DNA from: Closterium sp. NIES-65
Lineage: Eukaryota > Streptophyta > Zygnematophyceae > Desmidiales > Closteriaceae
Reading direction: 5' to 3'
DNA: 64,000 bases
Assembly (NCBI GenBank): GCA_948144175.1
Contig: CANXME010000253.1
Coordinates: 1-64,000 of the forward strand
Position 1 is the first letter of the stretch; each line of letters begins with the position of its first letter. Under the pieces are notes generated by a model. That model did not search any database, was not told the origin of the DNA, and saw nothing but the letters and a program-made list of their open reading frames with translations. This document shows, one piece after another, positions 8,070 to 64,000 of the stretch. Position numbers and translations under genes: made by a program.

Positions 8070-8549
8070 GGGTACAACACGAGGACTTCCCGGGAGGTCA
8101 CCCAGCCCAGTACTGCTCTCGCCCACCGATAGTGGCTGTGCTTGAAACGCTGTGCCCGTGCGGTCGTGCGGGTTGCTGCCGTGTTTTGGTCCTTTGGTGC
8201 TTCCTCCTCCTTAGTCTCTCTCCCTCTCTCCTCTTTTCTTCCCACCTCCCTCTTTCTGTTCCCTTCTTCTATCCTTCCCTTCTCTTCCTACCGCCCTCTT
8301 CTTTTCCCTACCACTTCTTCTTACTCCTTCATCCTTCCTTCCTTTCCTTTCTTTCCCCCTTTTCCTACAAAATATATATACCGTCCTCATAGCGATTAGG
8401 CTATGTCGAAATTTCCTAGTCTTGGAAAAACCATTATATTCGGCTTGTATTTGCTCTTCCCCTATTAATGAATAACTGCTCTCGCCCACCGGCGCTTAGC
8501 TTCGGAGTTCTGATGGGATCCGGCGTAGTAGCCGAGGTATGATCGTACC
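8070..8549 (-). pseudogene. 5S rRNA: 5S rRNA gene interrupted by a 346-bp insertion
   Basis: Reading the minus strand, nt 1-75 of a type A 5S (8549..8475) are followed by the insertion and then nt 59-117 (8128..8070). Nucleotides 59-75 are present twice as the 17-bp target-site duplication. The insertion separates box A and the intermediate element from box C, so TFIIIA binding and production of a normal 5S RNA should be lost. The remaining 5S sequence has no other change, so the break is recent or homogenised. Confidence 0.93.
8129..8474. mobile_element. 346-bp short retroelement-like insertion in 5S, allele I
   Basis: It is flanked by the 17-bp direct repeat ACTGCTCTCGCCCACCG (8112..8128 and 8475..8491), which is 5S sequence. 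A perfect 17-bp duplication is typical of target-primed insertion (SINE or truncated LINE) and too long for LTR elements or most DNA transposons. There are no terminal inverted repeats. The first 80 bp are mixed, about 8211..8365 is pyrimidine-rich, and the last 110 bp are AT-rich with ATATATATA (8372..8380) and end ATTAATGAATA. There is no poly-A tail and no convincing A and B boxes, so the family and orientation are unknown. The minus strand has T5 at 8426..8430. Allele I markers: CCTCTTTTCTTCC and CTACCGCCC. Confidence 0.85.
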
Positions 8550-13314: not shown

Positions 13315-13794
13315 GGGTACAACACGAGGACTTCCCGGGAGGTCACCCAGCCCAGTACTGCTCTCGCCCACCGATAGTGGCTGTGCTTGAAACGCTGTGC
13401 CCGTGCGGTCGTGCGGGTTGCTGCCGTGTTTTGGTCCTTTGGTGCTTCCTCCTCCTTAGTCTCTCTCCCTCTCTCCTCTTTCTTCCCACCTCCCTCTTTC
13501 TGTTCCCTTCTTCTATCCTTCCCTTCTCTTCCTACCAGCCCTCTTCTTTTCCCTACCACTTCTTCTTACTCCTTCATCCTTCCTTCCTTTCCTTTCTTTC
13601 CCCCTTTTCCTACAAAATATATATACCGTCCTCATAGCGATTAGGCTATGTCGAAATTTCCTAGTCTTGGAAAAACCATTATATTCGGCTTGTATTTGCT
13701 CTTCCCCTATTAATGAATAACTGCTCTCGCCCACCGGCGCTTAGCTTCGGAGTTCTGATGGGATCCGGCGTAGTAGCCGAGGTATGATCGTACC
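13315..13794 (-). pseudogene. 5S rRNA: Interrupted 5S rRNA gene
   Basis: Type A 5' part (13794..13720), insertion, then the 3' part (13373..13315). The trailer on the left has GAAAATGAAAAG in place of GAAAAGAAAAG, a marker shared with the copies at 26166 and 28162. Confidence 0.93.
13374..13719. mobile_element. Insertion in 5S, allele II, 346 bp
   Basis: 17-bp duplications at 13357..13373 and 13720..13736. Allele II markers: one T fewer in CCTCTTTCTTCC and one extra A in CTACCAGCCC, which leaves the length unchanged. Confidence 0.85.
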
Positions 13795-15310: not shown

Positions 15311-15790
15311 GGGTACAACACGAGGACTTCCCGGGAGGTCACCCAGCCCAGTACTGCTCTCGCCCACCGATAGTGGCTGTGCTTGAAACGCTGTGCCCGT
15401 GCGGTCGTGCGGGTTGCTGCCGTGTTTTGGTCCTTTGGTGCTTCCTCCTCCTTAGTCTCTCTCCCTCTCTCCTCTTTTCTTCCCACCTCCCTCTTTCTGT
15501 TCCCTTCTTCTATCCTTCCCTTCTCTTCCTACCGCCCTCTTCTTTTCCCTACCACTTCTTCTTACTCCTTCATCCTTCCTTCCTTTCCTTTCTTTCCCCC
15601 TTTTCCTACAAAATATATATACCGTCCTCATAGCGATTAGGCTATGTCGAAATTTCCTAGTCTTGGAAAAACCATTATATTCGGCTTGTATTTGCTCTTC
15701 CCCTATTAATGAATAACTGCTCTCGCCCACCGGCGCTTAGCTTCGGAGTTCTGATGGGATCCGGCGTAGTAGCCGAGGTATGATCGTACC
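15311..15790 (-). pseudogene. 5S rRNA: Interrupted 5S rRNA gene
   Basis: Type A 5' part (15790..15716) and 3' part (15369..15311). It is directly next to another interrupted copy on its left, 1996 bp apart. Confidence 0.93.
15370..15715. mobile_element. Insertion in 5S, allele I, 346 bp
   Basis: Flanked by duplications at 15353..15369 and 15716..15732; it carries the allele I markers seen at 8129..8474. Confidence 0.85.
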
Positions 15791-18921: not shown

Positions 18922-19401
18922 GGGTACAACACGAGGACTTCCCGGGAGGTCACCCAGCCCAGTACTGCTCTCGCCCACCGATAGTGGCTGTGCTTGAAAC
19001 GCTGTGCCCGTGCGGTCGTGCGGGTTGCTGCCGTGTTTTGGTCCTTTGGTGCTTCCTCCTCCTTAGTCTCTCTCCCTCTCTCCTCTTTCTTCCCACCTCC
19101 CTCTTTCTGTTCCCTTCTTCTATCCTTCCCTTCTCTTCCTACCAGCCCTCTTCTTTTCCCTACCACTTCTTCTTACTCCTTCATCCTTCCTTCCTTTCCT
19201 TTCTTTCCCCCTTTTCCTACAAAATATATATACCGTCCTCATAGCGATTAGGCTATGTCGAAATTTCCTAGTCTTGGAAAAACCATTATATTCGGCTTGT
19301 ATTTGCTCTTCCCCTATTAATGAATAACTGCTCTCGCCCACCGGCGCTTAGCTTCGGAGTTCTGATGGGATCCGGCGTAGTAGCCGAGGTATGATCGTAC
19401 C
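18922..19401 (-). pseudogene. 5S rRNA: Interrupted 5S rRNA gene
   Basis: Type A 5' part (19401..19327) and 3' part (18980..18922). Its unit is 1981 bp, short because the spacer on its left carries the 15-bp deletion. Confidence 0.93.
18981..19326. mobile_element. Insertion in 5S, allele II, 346 bp
   Basis: Duplications at 18964..18980 and 19327..19343. It carries the allele II markers of the copy at 13374. Confidence 0.85.
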
Positions 19402-24171: not shown

Positions 24172-24651
24172 GGGTACAACACGAGGACTTCCCGGGAGGT
24201 CACCCAGCCCAGTACTGCTCTCGCCCACCGATAGTGGCTGTGCTTGAAACGCTGTGCCCGTGCGGTCGTGCGGGTTGCTGCCGTGTTTTGGTCCTTTGGT
24301 GCTTCCTCCTCCTTAGTCTCTCTCCCTCTCTCCTCTTTTCTTCCCACCTCCCTCTTTCTGTTCCCTTCTTCTATCCTTCCCTTCTCTTCCTACCGCCCTC
24401 TTCTTTTCCCTACCACTTCTTCTTACTCCTTCATCCTTCCTTCCTTTCCTTTCTTTCCCCCTTTTCCTACAAAATATATATACCGTCCTCATAGCGATTA
24501 GGCTATGTCGAAATTTCCTAGTCTTGGAAAAACCATTATATTCGGCTTGTATTTGCTCTTCCCCTATTAATGAATAACTGCTCTCGCCCACCGGCGCTTA
24601 GCTTCGGAGTTCTGATGGGATCCGGCGTAGTAGCCGAGGTATGATCGTACC
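24172..24651 (-). pseudogene. 5S rRNA: Interrupted 5S rRNA gene
   Basis: Type A 5' part (24651..24577) and 3' part (24230..24172). First of four consecutive interrupted copies. Confidence 0.93.
24231..24576. mobile_element. Insertion in 5S, allele I, 346 bp
   Basis: Duplications at 24214..24230 and 24577..24593; allele I markers present. Confidence 0.85.
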
Positions 24652-26165: not shown

Positions 26166-26645
26166 GGGTACAACACGAGGACTTCCCGGGAGGTCACCCA
26201 GCCCAGTACTGCTCTCGCCCACCGATAGTGGCTGTGCTTGAAACGCTGTGCCCGTGCGGTCGTGCGGGTTGCTGCCGTGTTGTGGTCCTTTGGTGCTTCC
26301 TCCTCCTTAGTCTCTCTCCCTCTCTCCTCTTCTCTTCCCACCTCCCTCTTTCTGTTCCCTTCTTCTATCCTTCCCTTCTCTTCCTACCAGCCCTCTTCTT
26401 TTCCCTACCACTTCTTCTTACTCCTTCATCCTTCCTTCCTTCCTTTCTTTCCCCCTTGTCCTACAAAATATATATACCGTCCTCATAGCGATTAGGCTAT
26501 GTCGAAATTTCCTAGTCTTGGAAAAACCATTATATTCGGCTTGTATTTGCTCTTCCCCTATTAATGAATAACTGCTCTCGCCCACCGGCGCTTAGCTTCG
26601 GAGTTCTGATGGGATCCGGCGTAGTAGCCGAGGTATGATCGTACC
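26166..26645 (-). pseudogene. 5S rRNA: Interrupted 5S rRNA gene
   Basis: Type A 5' part (26645..26571) and 3' part (26224..26166). The trailer has an A9 run and GAAAATGAAAAG, as in the next copy. Confidence 0.93.
26225..26570. mobile_element. Insertion in 5S, allele III, 346 bp
   Basis: Duplications at 26208..26224 and 26571..26587. Allele III markers: GTGTTGTGGTCC, CCTCTTCTCTTCCC and CCCCCTTGTCC. It also has CTACCAGCCC, as in allele II. Confidence 0.85.
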
Positions 26646-28161: not shown

Positions 28162-28640
28162 GGGTACAACACGAGGACTTCCCGGGAGGTCACCCAGCCC
28201 AGTACTGCTCTCGCCCACCGATAGTGGCTGTGCTTGAAACGCTGTGCCCGTGCGGTCGTGCGGGTTGCTGCCGTGTTGTGGTCCTTTGGTGCTTCCTCCT
28301 CCTTAGTCTCTCTCCCTCTCTCCTCTTCTCTTCCCACCTCCCTCTTTCTGTTCCCTTCTTCTATCCTTCCCTTCTCTTCCTACCACCCTCTTCTTTTCCC
28401 TACCACTTCTTCTTACTCTTCATCCTTCCTTCCTTCCTTTCTTTCCCCCTTGTCCTACAAAATATATATACCGTCCTCATAGCGATTAAGGCTATGTCGA
28501 AATTTCCTAGTCTTGGAAAAACCATTATATTCGGCTTGTATTTGCTCTTCCCCTATTAATGAATAACTGCTCTCGCCCACCGGCGCTTAGCTTCGGAGTT
28601 CTGATGGGATCCGGCGTAGTAGCCGAGGTATGATCGTACC
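28162..28640 (-). pseudogene. 5S rRNA: Interrupted 5S rRNA gene
   Basis: Type A 5' part (28640..28566) and 3' part (28220..28162). A9 and GAAAATGAAAAG trailer as in its left neighbour. The spacer to its right has one C fewer near 28860. Confidence 0.93.
28221..28565. mobile_element. Insertion in 5S, allele III variant, 345 bp
   Basis: Duplications at 28204..28220 and 28566..28582. It has the TTGTGG and CCTTGTCC markers, but CTACCACCC, a missing C in TTACTCTTCATCC and an extra A in GATTAAGGC. Confidence 0.85.
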
Positions 28641-30154: not shown

Positions 30155-30634
30155 GGGTACAACACGAGGACTTCCCGGGAGGTCACCCAGCCCAGTACTG
30201 CTCTCGCCCACCGATAGTGGCTGTGCTTGAAACGCTGTGCCCGTGCGGTCGTGCGGGTTGCTGCCGTGTTTTGGTCCTTTGGTGCTTCCTCCTCCTTAGT
30301 CTCTCTCCCTCTCTCCTCTTCTCTTCCCACCTCCCTCTTTCTGTTCCCTTCTTCTATCCTTCCCTTCTCTTCCTACCACCCTCTTCTTTTCCCTACCACT
30401 TCTTCTTACTCCTTCATCCTTCCTTCCTTTCCTTTCTTTCCCCCTTTTCCTACAAAATATATATACCGTCCTCATAGCGATTAGGCTATGTCGAAATTTC
30501 CTAGTCTTGGAAAAACCATTATATTCGGCTTGTATTTGCTCTTCCCCTATTAATGAATAACTGCTCTCGCCCACCGGCGCTTAGCTTCGGAGTTCTGATG
30601 GGATCCGGCGTAGTAGCCGAGGTATGATCGTACC
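30155..30634 (-). pseudogene. 5S rRNA: Interrupted 5S rRNA gene
   Basis: Type A 5' part (30634..30560) and 3' part (30213..30155). The trailer has an extra C (TTTTTCCCCGC). Confidence 0.93.
30214..30559. mobile_element. Insertion in 5S, mosaic allele, 346 bp
   Basis: Duplications at 30197..30213 and 30560..30576. Its start (TTTTGG) and end (CCCCCTTTTCC) match allele I, while CCTCTTCTCTTCCC and CTACCACCC match allele III. This is what a conversion tract between two alleles would leave. Confidence 0.85.
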
Positions 30635-37035: not shown

Positions 37036-37514
37036 GGGTACAACACGAGGACTTCCCGGGAGGTCACCCAGCCCAGTACTGCTCTCGCCCACCGATAGTG
37101 GCTGTGCTTGAAACGCTGTGCCCGTGCGGTCGTGCGGGTTGCTGCCGTGTTTTGGTCCTTTGGTGCTTCCTCCTCCTTAGTCTCTCTCCCTCTCTCCTCT
37201 TTCTTCCCACCTCCCTCTTTCTGTTCCCTTCTTCTATCCTTCCCTTCTCTTCCTACCAGCCCTCTTCTTTTCCCTACCACTTCTTCTTACTCCTTCATCC
37301 TTCCTTCCTTTCCTTTCTTTCCCCCTTTTCCTACAAAATATATATACCGTCCTCATAGCGATTAGGCTATGTCGAAATTTCCTAGTCTTGGAAAAACCAT
37401 TATATTCGGCTTGTATTTGCTCTTCCCTATTAATGAATAACTGCTCTCGCCCACCGGCGCTTAGCTTCGGAGTTCTGATGGGATCCGGCGTAGTAGCCGA
37501 GGTATGATCGTACC
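37036..37514 (-). pseudogene. 5S rRNA: Interrupted 5S rRNA gene
   Basis: Type A 5' part (37514..37440) and 3' part (37094..37036). Confidence 0.93.
37095..37439. mobile_element. Insertion in 5S, allele II variant, 345 bp
   Basis: Duplications at 37078..37094 and 37440..37456. Allele II with one C missing near the end (CTCTTCCCTATTAATG). Confidence 0.85.
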
Positions 37515-43921: not shown

Positions 43922-44401
43922 GGGTACAACACGAGGACTTCCCGGGAGGTCACCCAGCCCAGTACTGCTCTCGCCCACCGATAGTGGCTGTGCTTGAAAC
44001 GCTGTGCCCGTGCGGTCGTGCGGGTTGCTGCCGTGTTTTGGTCCTTTGGTGCTTCCTCCTCCTTAGTCTCTCTCCCTCTCTCCTCTTTTCTTCCCACCTC
44101 CCTCTTTCTGTTCCCTTCTTCTATCCTTCCCTTCTCTTCCTACCGCCCTCTTCTTTTCCCTACCACTTCTTCTTACTCCTTCATCCTTCCTTCCTTTCCT
44201 TTCTTTCCCCCTTTTCCTACAAAATATATATACCGTCCTCATAGCGATTAGGCTATGTCGAAATTTCCTAGTCTTGGAAAAACCATTATATTCGGCTTGT
44301 ATTTGCTCTTCCCCTATTAATGAATAACTGCTCTCGCCCACCGGCGCTTAGCTTCGGAGTTCTGATGGGATCCGGCGTAGTAGCCGAGGTATGATCGTAC
44401 C
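43922..44401 (-). pseudogene. 5S rRNA: Interrupted 5S rRNA gene
   Basis: Type A 5' part (44401..44327) and 3' part (43980..43922). First of a run of three interrupted copies; trailer A-run of 7. Confidence 0.93.
43981..44326. mobile_element. Insertion in 5S, allele I, 346 bp
   Basis: Duplications at 43964..43980 and 44327..44343. Confidence 0.85.
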
Positions 44402-45918: not shown

Positions 45919-46398
45919 GGGTACAACACGAGGACTTCCCGGGAGGTCACCCAGCCCAGTACTGCTCTCGCCCACCGATAGTGGCTGTGCTTGAAACGCT
46001 GTGCCCGTGCGGTCGTGCGGGTTGCTGCCGTGTTTTGGTCCTTTGGTGCTTCCTCCTCCTTAGTCTCTCTCCCTCTCTCCTCTTTTCTTCCCACCTCCCT
46101 CTTTCTGTTCCCTTCTTCTATCCTTCCCTTCTCTTCCTACCGCCCTCTTCTTTTCCCTACCACTTCTTCTTACTCCTTCATCCTTCCTTCCTTTCCTTTC
46201 TTTCCCCCTTTTCCTACAAAATATATATACCGTCCTCATAGCGATTAGGCTATGTCGAAATTTCCTAGTCTTGGAAAAACCATTATATTCGGCTTGTATT
46301 TGCTCTTCCCCTATTAATGAATAACTGCTCTCGCCCACCGGCGCTTAGCTTCGGAGTTCTGATGGGATCCGGCGTAGTAGCCGAGGTATGATCGTACC
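45919..46398 (-). pseudogene. 5S rRNA: Interrupted 5S rRNA gene
   Basis: Type A 5' part (46398..46324) and 3' part (45977..45919); middle of the run of three. Confidence 0.93.
45978..46323. mobile_element. Insertion in 5S, allele I, 346 bp
   Basis: Duplications at 45961..45977 and 46324..46340. Confidence 0.85.
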
Positions 46399-47916: not shown

Positions 47917-48396
47917 GGGTACAACACGAGGACTTCCCGGGAGGTCACCCAGCCCAGTACTGCTCTCGCCCACCGATAGTGGCTGTGCTTGAAACGCTGT
48001 GCCCGTGCGGTCGTGCGGGTTGCTGCCGTGTTTTGGTCCTTTGGTGCTTCCTCCTCCTTAGTCTCTCTCCCTCTCTCCTCTTTTCTTCCCACCTCCCTCT
48101 TTCTGTTCCCTTCTTCTATCCTTCCCTTCTCTTCCTACCGCCCTCTTCTTTTCCCTACCACTTCTTCTTACTCCTTCATCCTTCCTTCCTTTCCTTTCTT
48201 TCCCCCTTTTCCTACAAAATATATATACCGTCCTCATAGCGATTAGGCTATGTCGAAATTTCCTAGTCTTGGAAAAACCATTATATTCGGCTTGTATTTG
48301 CTCTTCCCCTATTAATGAATAACTGCTCTCGCCCACCGGCGCTTAGCTTCGGAGTTCTGATGGGATCCGGCGTAGTAGCCGAGGTATGATCGTACC
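47917..48396 (-). pseudogene. 5S rRNA: Interrupted 5S rRNA gene
   Basis: Type A 5' part (48396..48322) and 3' part (47975..47917); last of the run of three. Confidence 0.93.
47976..48321. mobile_element. Insertion in 5S, allele I, 346 bp
   Basis: Duplications at 47959..47975 and 48322..48338. Confidence 0.85.
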
Positions 48397-53184: not shown

Positions 53185-53664
53185 GGGTACAACACGAGGA
53201 CTTCCCGGGAGGTCACCCAGCCCAGTACTGCTCTCGCCCACCGATAGTGGCTGTGCTTGAAACGCTGTGCCCGTGCGGTCGTGCGGGTTGCTGCCGTGTT
53301 TTGGTCCTTTGGTGCTTCCTCCTCCTTAGTCTCTCTCCCTCTCTCCTCTTTTCTTCCCACCTCCCTCTTTCTGTTCCCTTCTTCTATCCTTCCCTTCTCT
53401 TCCTACCGCCCTCTTCTTTTCCCTACCACTTCTTCTTACTCCTTCATCCTTCCTTCCTTTCCTTTCTTTCCCCCTTTTCCTACAAAATATATATACCGTC
53501 CTCATAGCGATTAGGCTATGTCGAAATTTCCTAGTCTTGGAAAAACCATTATATTCGGCTTGTATTTGCTCTTCCCCTATTAATGAATAACTGCTCTCGC
53601 CCACCGGCGCTTAGCTTCGGAGTTCTGATGGGATCCGGCGTAGTAGCCGAGGTATGATCGTACC
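53185..53664 (-). pseudogene. 5S rRNA: Interrupted 5S rRNA gene
   Basis: Type A 5' part (53664..53590) and 3' part (53243..53185). First of a second run of three; A7 trailer. Confidence 0.93.
53244..53589. mobile_element. Insertion in 5S, allele I, 346 bp
   Basis: Duplications at 53227..53243 and 53590..53606. Confidence 0.85.
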
Positions 53665-55181: not shown

Positions 55182-55661
55182 GGGTACAACACGAGGACTT
55201 CCCGGGAGGTCACCCAGCCCAGTACTGCTCTCGCCCACCGATAGTGGCTGTGCTTGAAACGCTGTGCCCGTGCGGTCGTGCGGGTTGCTGCCGTGTTTTG
55301 GTCCTTTGGTGCTTCCTCCTCCTTAGTCTCTCTCCCTCTCTCCTCTTTTCTTCCCACCTCCCTCTTTCTGTTCCCTTCTTCTATCCTTCCCTTCTCTTCC
55401 TACCGCCCTCTTCTTTTCCCTACCACTTCTTCTTACTCCTTCATCCTTCCTTCCTTTCCTTTCTTTCCCCCTTTTCCTACAAAATATATATACCGTCCTC
55501 ATAGCGATTAGGCTATGTCGAAATTTCCTAGTCTTGGAAAAACCATTATATTCGGCTTGTATTTGCTCTTCCCCTATTAATGAATAACTGCTCTCGCCCA
55601 CCGGCGCTTAGCTTCGGAGTTCTGATGGGATCCGGCGTAGTAGCCGAGGTATGATCGTACC
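55182..55661 (-). pseudogene. 5S rRNA: Interrupted 5S rRNA gene
   Basis: Type A 5' part (55661..55587) and 3' part (55240..55182). Confidence 0.93.
55241..55586. mobile_element. Insertion in 5S, allele I, 346 bp
   Basis: Duplications at 55224..55240 and 55587..55603. Confidence 0.85.
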
Positions 55662-57179: not shown

Positions 57180-57660
57180 GGGTACAACACGAGGACTTCC
57201 CGGGAGGTCACCCAGCCCAGTACTGCTCTCGCCCACCGATAGTGGCTGTGCTTGAAAACGCTGTGCCCGTGCGGTCGTGCGGGTTGCTGCCGTGTTTTGG
57301 TCCTTTGGTGCTTCCTCCTCCTTAGTCTCTCTCCCTCTCTCCTCTTTTCTTCCCACCTCCCTCTTTCTGTTCCCTTCTTCTATCCTTCCCTTCTCTTCCT
57401 ACCGCCCTCTTCTTTTCCCTACCACTTCTTCTTACTCCTTCATCCTTCCTTCCTTTCCTTTCTTTCCCCCTTTTCCTACAAAATATATATACCGTCCTCA
57501 TAGCGATTAGGCTATGTCGAAATTTCCTAGTCTTGGAAAAACCATTATATTCGGCTTGTATTTGCTCTTCCCCTATTAATGAATAACTGCTCTCGCCCAC
57601 CGGCGCTTAGCTTCGGAGTTCTGATGGGATCCGGCGTAGTAGCCGAGGTATGATCGTACC
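57180..57660 (-). pseudogene. 5S rRNA: Interrupted 5S rRNA gene
   Basis: Type A 5' part (57660..57586) and 3' part (57238..57180). The trailer has an extra G (CGCTGGGGTCG) and an A7 run. Rightmost interrupted copy of the array. Confidence 0.93.
57239..57585. mobile_element. Insertion in 5S, allele I variant, 347 bp
   Basis: Duplications at 57222..57238 and 57586..57602. One extra A (CTTGAAAACGC) separates it from the other allele I copies. Confidence 0.85.
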
Positions 57661-62443: not shown

Positions 62444-62507
62444 GGGTACAACACGAGGACTTCCCGGGAGGTCACCCAGCCCAGTACTGCTCTCGCCCAC
62501 CGGCGCT
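62444..62507 (-). pseudogene. 5S rRNA: Truncated 5S rRNA gene at the array edge
   Basis: Nucleotides 54-117 (the 3' half) are intact up to CGGCGCT. The sequence then changes abruptly to CTTACCTTGACC, so nt 1-53, including helix II 5' strand, helix III and most of box A, are missing. There is no 17-bp duplication and the insertion of the other copies is absent, so this break is a separate event. The hairpin and trailer on its left are normal, with A7. Confidence 0.92.
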
Positions 62508-63340
62508 CTTACCTTGACCTAGCTTACCTAGCCATGGCTGCCTACTAAGGAGCCTCCTAAACCTACTATTTCGAGTTGCTTAAGGACAAAGTGATTGTGA
62601 TAGTTGTTTATGTTATAGTTATAAGCGTTTCCAACGGTTAGTTTTTTAGTTTCGACTGTCGAGTTCGACGGGACGGGGGTCGCGAGTTTCGCGCGCGACC
62701 CTCAGGAGTCTCGGAAACGGAACTCGCGGGGTGTTACGGAACCGTTTGTTCGACCCCGCCATCGCGGGATCGCTGCGGACGCGCTGCAGCCGGTGTAACG
62801 GGAGGTGGGGCGCTGACGCGAAGTTCGCCCGCGGAGTGTAACAGCGCGCGCGACTCACAACCACAACTCCGCCAGACACGGTGTTCCCGCCCATCCCCTC
62901 TCTCGACACTCTCCCTTATCCCCCCGCTCTTTTCTGCTCACGGCTTTTCTATTCGAAGCGATTAGCTGCTACCGAGTTTTTTCCCGCGGTTTCCCTCTCT
63001 CGAAGTCACTGAGCTTAGCTTCCGCCCGTAGTTAGCACTCTTCCTTCCCTTTCGGTGCGCCCTTCTTTATCGTAACCCTAATTCGAAGAGCCGCGCGTTT
63101 CCAAGCACGCTTTCTCGTCGCCTATCATGTTTAGTCATGCACTCGTTTTCCCCGCCTGTTCAATCTAGCCGCGACGTAGACGGAACCGCGCACGGGGCGC
63201 TTACCGCCAGGGAAAGGCAGCGCGGAGGGAGGCGAAATTGCTACGTTCGTAGCGATTAAGCAGCCCTCCCCTTGCGCGCCTCCCGAAGCGCGTTTTCTGC
63301 CTAGAGCGTTTTAGCCGCCCACGTTTGGCACACAAGCCGC
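62508..63340. other. Right flank, non-repetitive, no gene recognised
   Basis: Balanced, CpG-containing sequence unlike the spacer. Stops are frequent and the longest frame is an 87-codon minus-strand frame with no recognisable motif. I checked for tRNA genes: GTTCGA-like motifs near 62661 and 62748 lack matching arms. It starts abruptly at the truncated 5S, so it is either the chromosomal neighbour of the array or part of a larger insertion. Confidence 0.6.
62677..62701. repeat. Short inverted repeat in the flank
   Basis: GGGTCGCG (62677..62684) and CGCGACCC (62694..62701) are perfect 8-bp arms around a 9-base loop. No T-tract follows, and no function is suggested by the surroundings. Confidence 0.5.
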
Positions 63341-64000
63341 CCCACTCCCCTTTTGCTCACTCCCACCCTGCCGTGCCTCGTCGCGCACTCGTGCATGCCA
63401 CCCACACGTCGTAATTTTACCCCGTCGCCACCCACATAGTCACCTCCCTGCTCACACCGCCCCTTTCCCCCTCACACGCGCGCTTTAGCCACCCCGCCAC
63501 CTAACCTCTTTCCCTAACGGCGCTTAGCTAGCAGAGGCCGCCCTGTTTCTGGAAACCGTAGGAAATAAGAGGAAACAACTTCAAGGAAAAAAGAAAAGAA
63601 AAAGAAATTCATATAAATCCGAAAAAACCAGGAAAAATCAGAAAGGCAGCTTACACCTTGTTCTCCCAACCCTCCAGGGCCCCACCCAGTCCGCCACCCC
63701 CCCATTCTGTTTCATCATACTACACCACACCCTCCCCTTTTGCCCACCAGCATTACCGCCCCTCTCCCCTTATCCCCCACCACGCCCCCAAGCAGGCCTT
63801 TCTCCCCCCAGCCTCCCGTCTCCCTGCCCTTAGTACCGCCGCGCTCTGCCCGTGCGTCACCCTTGCCCACTTCATACCACCTCCCCCTTCTCCCCCCCCC
63901 CCGGCTTCTCCCTATCATCACCCGCATGTTCCCCCACTCCCCTGTCCACAACGTCCCTCCACCCCCCTTCCTGCTTTCCCCACTCCCACTCTGCCCCCCA
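63341..64000. repeat. C-rich flank, possibly decayed 5S spacer
   Basis: The + strand turns strongly pyrimidine-rich again, with pieces such as CCCCTTTTGC, a 12-C run ending at 63902, and CCTATCATC (63911..63919) that recall the array spacer (which has CCTATCATCCATGCCCC). An A-rich stretch at about 63590..63615 recalls the trailer A-tracts. The match is in composition and short words only, so homology is uncertain. Confidence 0.35.
63518..63529 (-). pseudogene. Possible 12-bp 5S remnant
   Basis: CGGCGCTTAGCT equals nt 49-60 of the 5S gene on the minus strand. The match does not extend to the right, and extends only weakly to the left. It may be chance, or the other side of a 5S copy split at the array edge. 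Confidence 0.25.

Follow-up and report, generated by a model that had tools for sequence, protein, structure and literature searches.

A 346-bp insert in 5S rRNA genes is very probably the truncated 3' UTR of a 5S-inserting LINE

What is the short sequence that interrupts so many of the 5S rRNA genes in this array, always at the same nucleotide, and how did it come to be there? The window analysed here is the whole 64,000-nucleotide stretch of DNA, and its 5S genes, which we take to be plant-type, run antiparallel to the plus strand (35 of 35 Rfam matches lie on the minus strand). The scored set consists of the 35 loci whose 3' end lies inside the window, with a partial 36th copy at 1-77 left unscored. 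Overall, 15 of these loci carry an insert of 345-347 bp (346 bp in 12 loci, 345 bp in two and 347 bp in one). In 19 others the gene runs uninterrupted, and in the remaining one, at 62444, a long sequence of another kind breaks in at almost the same point. The initial annotation had reported inserts in 15 of 34 genes; the 15 insert-bearing genes stand, while the total omitted the interrupted gene at 62444 and the partial copy. The inserts are flanked by a 17-bp repeat, ACTGCTCTCGCCCACCG, which corresponds to 5S nucleotides 59-75 in gene coordinates. Both copies of this repeat are perfect in 15 of 15 window inserts, in agreement with the single exact site and 17-bp duplication proposed at the outset, and the chance of a perfect 17-bp match is about 6e-11 per insert, assuming equal base frequencies. 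The true repeat may be 16 bp, with the first base of the right-hand repeat an untemplated junction base, because this base is A, T or G across copies of the family.

All 15 inserts, referred to below as stubs, lie on the plus strand. The first, together with both 17-bp target copies, spans 8112-8491 (left repeat 8112-8128, insert 8129-8474, right repeat 8475-8491). Further 346-bp stubs occupy 13374-13719, 15370-15715, 18981-19326, 24231-24576, 26225-26570, 30214-30559, 43981-44326, 45978-46323, 47976-48321, 53244-53589 and 55241-55586; those of 345 bp are at 28221-28565 and 37095-37439, and that of 347 bp is at 57239-57585. The insert falls between the parts of the 5S internal promoter, at the positions that we assume for it, and because it splits these parts the stub-bearing genes are probably dead. 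An intron or ancestral sequence was considered as the source of the extra DNA and rejected, since the same array holds 19 uninterrupted genes, which score 84.1-97.5 bits against the 5S model compared with 45.5 bits for insert-bearing genes.

The uninterrupted genes also vary among themselves. Among the 5S genes at 1605-60812, TAATAGCT replaces GTAGTAGCCG in 11 of the 19 uninterrupted copies, with a 5S model score of 84.1 rather than 97.5 bits, and this variant occurs in none of the 15 stub-bearing genes. The spacer is about 1.5 kb in all window units, and its strand is strongly pyrimidine-rich (the window is 50% C and 25% T).

The identity of the insert emerges from the gene at 62444. This gene is cut at GGCGCT/CTTACC, and the array resumes about 11 kb further on with insert sequence, followed by the remaining 5S. 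A 22-bp left target copy (5S nucleotides 54-75) at 62486-62507 on the plus strand precedes a 10,967-bp non-LTR retrotransposon that lies within the 5S gene at C253:62508-73474, where C253 is the contig of the window; the 5' part of this LINE fills 62508-64000 on the plus strand, its ORF begins beyond the window, at C253:65084, and the whole element is antisense to the 5S transcript. Over its full length, the stub matches the last 345 bp of this long copy at 96.8% identity. It is 97.7-98.6% identical to four copies on C161, C235, C332 and C2156, which run past the 5' end of the stub into coding sequence. The stop codon of the long element ends at C253:73123 and the stub sequence starts at 73130. 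Read from these alignments, the stub is the 3' UTR minus its first six bases and nothing else, that is, a truncated LINE stub and not a SINE. While the initial annotation had described a short element that fits no obvious known SINE class, the insert is instead the 3' UTR stub of a LINE of about 11 kb, a long copy of which starts at 62508. We consider it very probable that the insert is the 3' UTR of a 5S-inserting LINE and dates from an insertion in which reverse transcription came to a halt 6 nt before reaching the stop codon.

The large frame of the long element extends over 2,700 codons from stop to stop, or 2,679 counted from its first ATG (C253:65084), and each of the five other frames contains 73-100 stops. 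Upstream of this RT-bearing ORF lies a 452-codon proline-rich frame, for which Pfam returned no match. Self-comparison of C253:62001-82000 revealed 5S units, element-internal repeats and a second long copy, and no terminal direct repeats (LTRs) of the element among matches longer than 60 bp at E up to 1e-10. Stub nucleotides 6-214 (8134-8342) are a diverged inverted copy of a coding segment of the element at C253 ~72,350-72,570, between the CCHC knuckle and the PD motif described below, with an alignment score of 124 compared with at most 54 in 200 single-base shuffles; the element RNA could fold back on itself at this inverted copy.

Comparison of copies reveals one shared 3' junction and several 5' junctions. 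The latter fall at 5S nucleotide 54 (the first C253 long copy), 59 (the stub) and about 62 (the second C253 copy). Both ends could be read for the stub, with its 17-bp duplication, and for the first C253 long copy, both of whose ends lie within one 5S gene and whose duplication is 22 bp (nucleotides 54-75). The second C253 copy, at about 76.74 kb, lacks 437 bp at its 5' end and starts in a 5S gene after 14 bp of target, giving a duplication of about 14 bp on a one-sided reading. One copy on C235 (L025) has the same 5' junction as the first C253 long copy. The 3' junction is common to the stub and to nine long copies (one each on C253, C1491, C571, C161 and C332, and two each on C2156 and C235), each of which was read for at least about 1.5 kb, and the next base varies between A, T and G, which suggests an untemplated base or point changes. 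At the 5' junction of the second C253 copy (C253 ~76,740-76,761) there is also a filler of 18-22 nt, made up of GTACTGCTTTC and a T run that is ambiguous, and the first bases of this filler resemble the adjacent target, as from template jumping.

A fixed 3' end, differing 5' ends and target-site duplications of variable length, all found here, are the features by which a non-LTR retrotransposon is recognized. As judged from the sequences, the junction pattern is that left by target-primed reverse transcription when the first nick is fixed and the second cut varies, and the three 5' junctions point to repeated insertion by this route. The initial proposal of a target-primed, site-specific insertion by LINE machinery is borne out. 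A DNA element with a 17-bp core, such as one moved by a tyrosine recombinase, was rejected, because the length of the target copy varies between copies. The two C253 copies are 99.98% identical over 5.2 kb, with no mismatch, yet differ in their 5' junctions, and this combination points to recent movement. Against the C253 copy, L023 (C2156), L024 (C1491), L025 (C235) and L026 (C571) show 99.8-100% identity over 1.6-4.0 kb. The corresponding figure for L027-L030 is 97.6-97.7%, with 99.8% identity between L027 and L030. The high identity of these other long copies could also be attributed to array amplification.

The large frame encodes a reverse transcriptase (Pfam RVT_1, E=6.2e-18). Its best sequence matches in the PDB are to R2 proteins (E=9.5e-8) and then LINE-1 ORF2p (E=0.0037), a result that is no test of clade since R2 and LINE-1 are the sole LINEs named among the nine matches. 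The only NCBIfam match, to a group II intron RT model at 42.7 bits against a cut-off of 300, fits an RT and not a particular clade. By eye, a C2H2-like finger is visible ahead of the RT at about residue 1441, and a CCHC-like knuckle behind it at about residue 2251. The latter reads CX1CX10HX4C, in which the order is as published and the spacing non-standard, the published form being CX2-3CX7-8HX4C (PMC5678591). Further on, PD..D-type motifs can be discerned, also by eye (RIPDLTCRD at about residue 2497 and VDVSIAD at about 2514), and the lysine motif is not clear. This succession of finger, RT, CCHC-like knuckle and PD..D motifs appears to be the domain order of an R2-type protein. For the C-terminal part, however, Pfam gave no endonuclease match and the PDB no R2 match, only weak, unrelated matches to DNA gyrase B (E=0.0098) and a Fis-like protein. 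We therefore treat "R2-like" as a lead with partial support rather than as a clade assignment, because the endonuclease part lacks Pfam support and its PDB matches are unrelated. No AP endonuclease was found by Pfam in the 2,700 codons, which were searched in two pieces and yielded only RVT_1 and a weak zinc-domain match (E=0.24); the first 559 codons matched nothing in Pfam, and in the rest the zinc-domain match alone precedes the RT. A scan of viral contigs gave no relatives of the RT.

In a comparison of up to 391 C-terminal codons among five copies, dN/dS was 0.28-0.68 in 10 of 10 pairs. The defects in these copies were a stop codon common to two of them and a one-base frameshift in one. 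The roughly 1,440 residues ahead of the finger (C253:65,084-69,400) are mostly low-complexity, Ala/Gly/Glu- and Pro-rich sequence.

To follow the stub beyond the window, we searched its own assembly (874 Mb in 2,400 contigs) with the insert. This gave 313 candidates, and all 40 that were scored are 100% identical, on 9 contigs. The 20 stub loci that were retrieved, four of which are window copies, have one 5' end and one 5S allele (20 of 20), with a perfect 17-bp pair in 19 and two altered bases in the left copy of the remaining one. Searching for the exact 3' end of the stub with any base other than that of the target behind it yielded four places. Each of them proved to be a 5S site in which the first base of the target is altered, and beyond the 5' end of the stub the sequence there continues into other DNA with no return to 5S. 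Patterns excluding the target gave no match in the assembly to the stub 3' end with non-5S flanks at up to 3 mismatches. At this search sensitivity, the search of the rest of the genome called for by the initial annotation turned up the 3' end of the insert in 5S genes alone.

How, then, did the stub come to occupy so many genes? All 15 window stubs share the 5' end, the repeat and the 5S allele, and 8 of the 15 are identical, the others differing at few positions. Because of this shared 5' end, repeat and allele, the array stubs probably descend from one truncated insertion that turnover of the 5S array has multiplied. Taken alone, the allele test for a single origin has limited strength, since the 5S sequence of the stub-bearing genes recurs in 3 of the 19 uninterrupted ones. 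The spacers of 34 units differ by a mean distance of only 0.13-0.19%, too uniform to root the stub units or to show descent independently. The initial impression of an element fixed in nearly half of the array holds as a count (15 of 35), and the multiplication of one truncated insertion with the array is its most likely basis. In a different history, the stub would be a mobile, non-autonomous element, a SINE-like 3' UTR that the long element mobilizes in trans, with many insertions at the same site. R2-type proteins need the 3' UTR for reverse transcription, and the stub consists of just that part, has two small hairpins predicted near its 3' end and occurs in numerous copies across 9 contigs. 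We nonetheless regard this history as improbable given the uniformity of 5' end, duplication and allele in the retrieved loci (with the one altered left copy noted above) and in the window, the lack of any match to the 3' end outside 5S at up to 3 mismatches, and the lack of a recognizable head. The window holds no tRNA in a scan with bacterial settings and no Rfam family except 5S at gathering score. As the initial annotation had surmised, the insert is no ordinary SINE; such a classification was rejected, as no head was found, the origin appears to be single and the sequence is part of a longer element.

The shortened form itself could have arisen in another manner, by a deletion in an older long insertion that removed everything from a point inside the 22-bp left duplication to one just past the stop codon, with later spread through the array. 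Such a deletion would leave exactly the observed structure, as the 17-bp repeat of the stub lies inside the 22-bp repeat of the long copy, but no microhomology is evident at the two ends, and LINEs commonly arise shortened through 5' truncation in reverse transcription (PMC3747384). We judge a deletion to be unlikely, if clearly more plausible than a mobile stub, and it leaves the identity of the insert unchanged. While 5S arrays are hard to assemble, an assembly artefact or collapse has a negligible probability, given the 40 scored identical places over nine contigs, the small differences between copies and the long copies with different 5' junctions. A join between two sequences was rejected on the same 40 of 40 places, and this rival and that of ancestral sequence, both raised in the initial annotation, were thus tested with the identical inserts on nine contigs and the 19 uninterrupted genes, respectively.

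The preferred reading, an insertion cut short in reverse transcription, can be laid out as a series of steps. What the sequences provide directly is the shared 3' end, the shared 3' junction, the differing 5' ends with 17- and 22-bp duplications, and the RT. The putative C-terminal endonuclease would nick the 5S sense strand after nucleotide 74/75, the freed 3' OH would serve as primer for copying the RNA into cDNA, beginning at the end of the 3' UTR, and the other strand would be cut at a variable distance. In the case of the stub, reverse transcription would have halted 6 nt downstream of the stop codon, and the single truncated copy, to judge from its uniform 5' end and 5S allele, would have spread through the 5S arrays via unequal exchange or conversion. 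The element would also need its own promoter, because it is antisense to 5S and read-through expression from the host gene, as in R2, would not be expected.

Taken as a whole, the evidence tilts modestly towards a lineage of R2-like, RLE-type LINEs that resides in the 5S genes of a green-lineage (plant-type) genome, lies antisense to them, has been recently active and has had its own 3'-UTR stub multiplied through the arrays. To our knowledge, no 5S-specific RLE LINE has been described before. The combination of target, lineage and host looks new, and no 5S-specific RLE LINE from a plant or alga appeared among the literature matches listed, although these comprise titles, the beginnings of abstracts and open papers and are weak evidence of absence. 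If this reading is correct, the element would be among the first R2-like elements outside animals. Site-specific R2-type LINEs are investigated both as natural tools for gene insertion and as models for target-primed reverse transcription. A related element that is directed to 5S genes, with reversed orientation and a plant-type host, would broaden the target range and bear on the origin of specificity. The array itself, which is essential and has a dead stub in nearly half of the 5S genes of this stretch, offers a clean case for studying how insertions are tolerated, spread and purged.

Among known systems, Mutsu of zebrafish is, like the present element, a LINE that targets 5S rRNA genes, and it belongs to the AP-endonuclease lineage (Tx1/L1). 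It is about 5.5 kb long with two ORFs (PMC11202950; for the 5S target also PMC3706591), unlike the present element with its one large RT-bearing ORF and no Pfam match to an AP endonuclease. Non-LTR elements of about 5 kb also regularly interrupt the 5S repeats of Tribolium freemani, and these beetle LINEs are described as Jockey-like (PMC11202950). Dada-5S likewise targets 5S genes, in fish, but is a DNA transposon and moves by another mechanism (PMC8869645). Utopia and NeSL are RLE LINEs of small multicopy RNA genes with the order finger, RT, finger and RLE (PMC4640811), an order that our element, with its putative RLE, appears to share. They differ from our element in target, Utopia residing in U2 snRNA genes; the distribution given for Utopia covers Amoebozoa, SAR and Opisthokonta and includes no plants or green algae (PMC4640811). 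Within the green lineage, a table of plant LINEs from 2013 credits flowering plants with L1 and RTE, and green algae with L1, RandI and RTEX; the same source lists Chlamydomonas SINEs that share Dualen/RandI 3' ends (PMC3747384). Dualen/RandI are green-lineage RLE LINEs, but the known ones combine RLE with APE, whereas here no APE was found and the insertion is in 5S.

As of 2016, R2 had never been found outside animals according to Kojima et al. (PMC5035012), and the host of the present element is apparently no animal. R2 targets the 28S genes of animals, so the 5S target found here is not that of the R2 clade. Unlike R2, the element is antisense to its gene, has a frame of 2,679 codons with about 1,440 mostly low-complexity residues ahead of the finger, and leaves duplications of 17 and 22 bp. 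Both are alike, on the other hand, in a single multidomain protein with a C2H2-like finger and an RT, to which candidate C-terminal CCHC-like and PD..D motifs, recognized here by eye, may be added, and in the use of a fixed site in a multicopy rRNA gene, with a fixed 3' junction and differing 5' ends.
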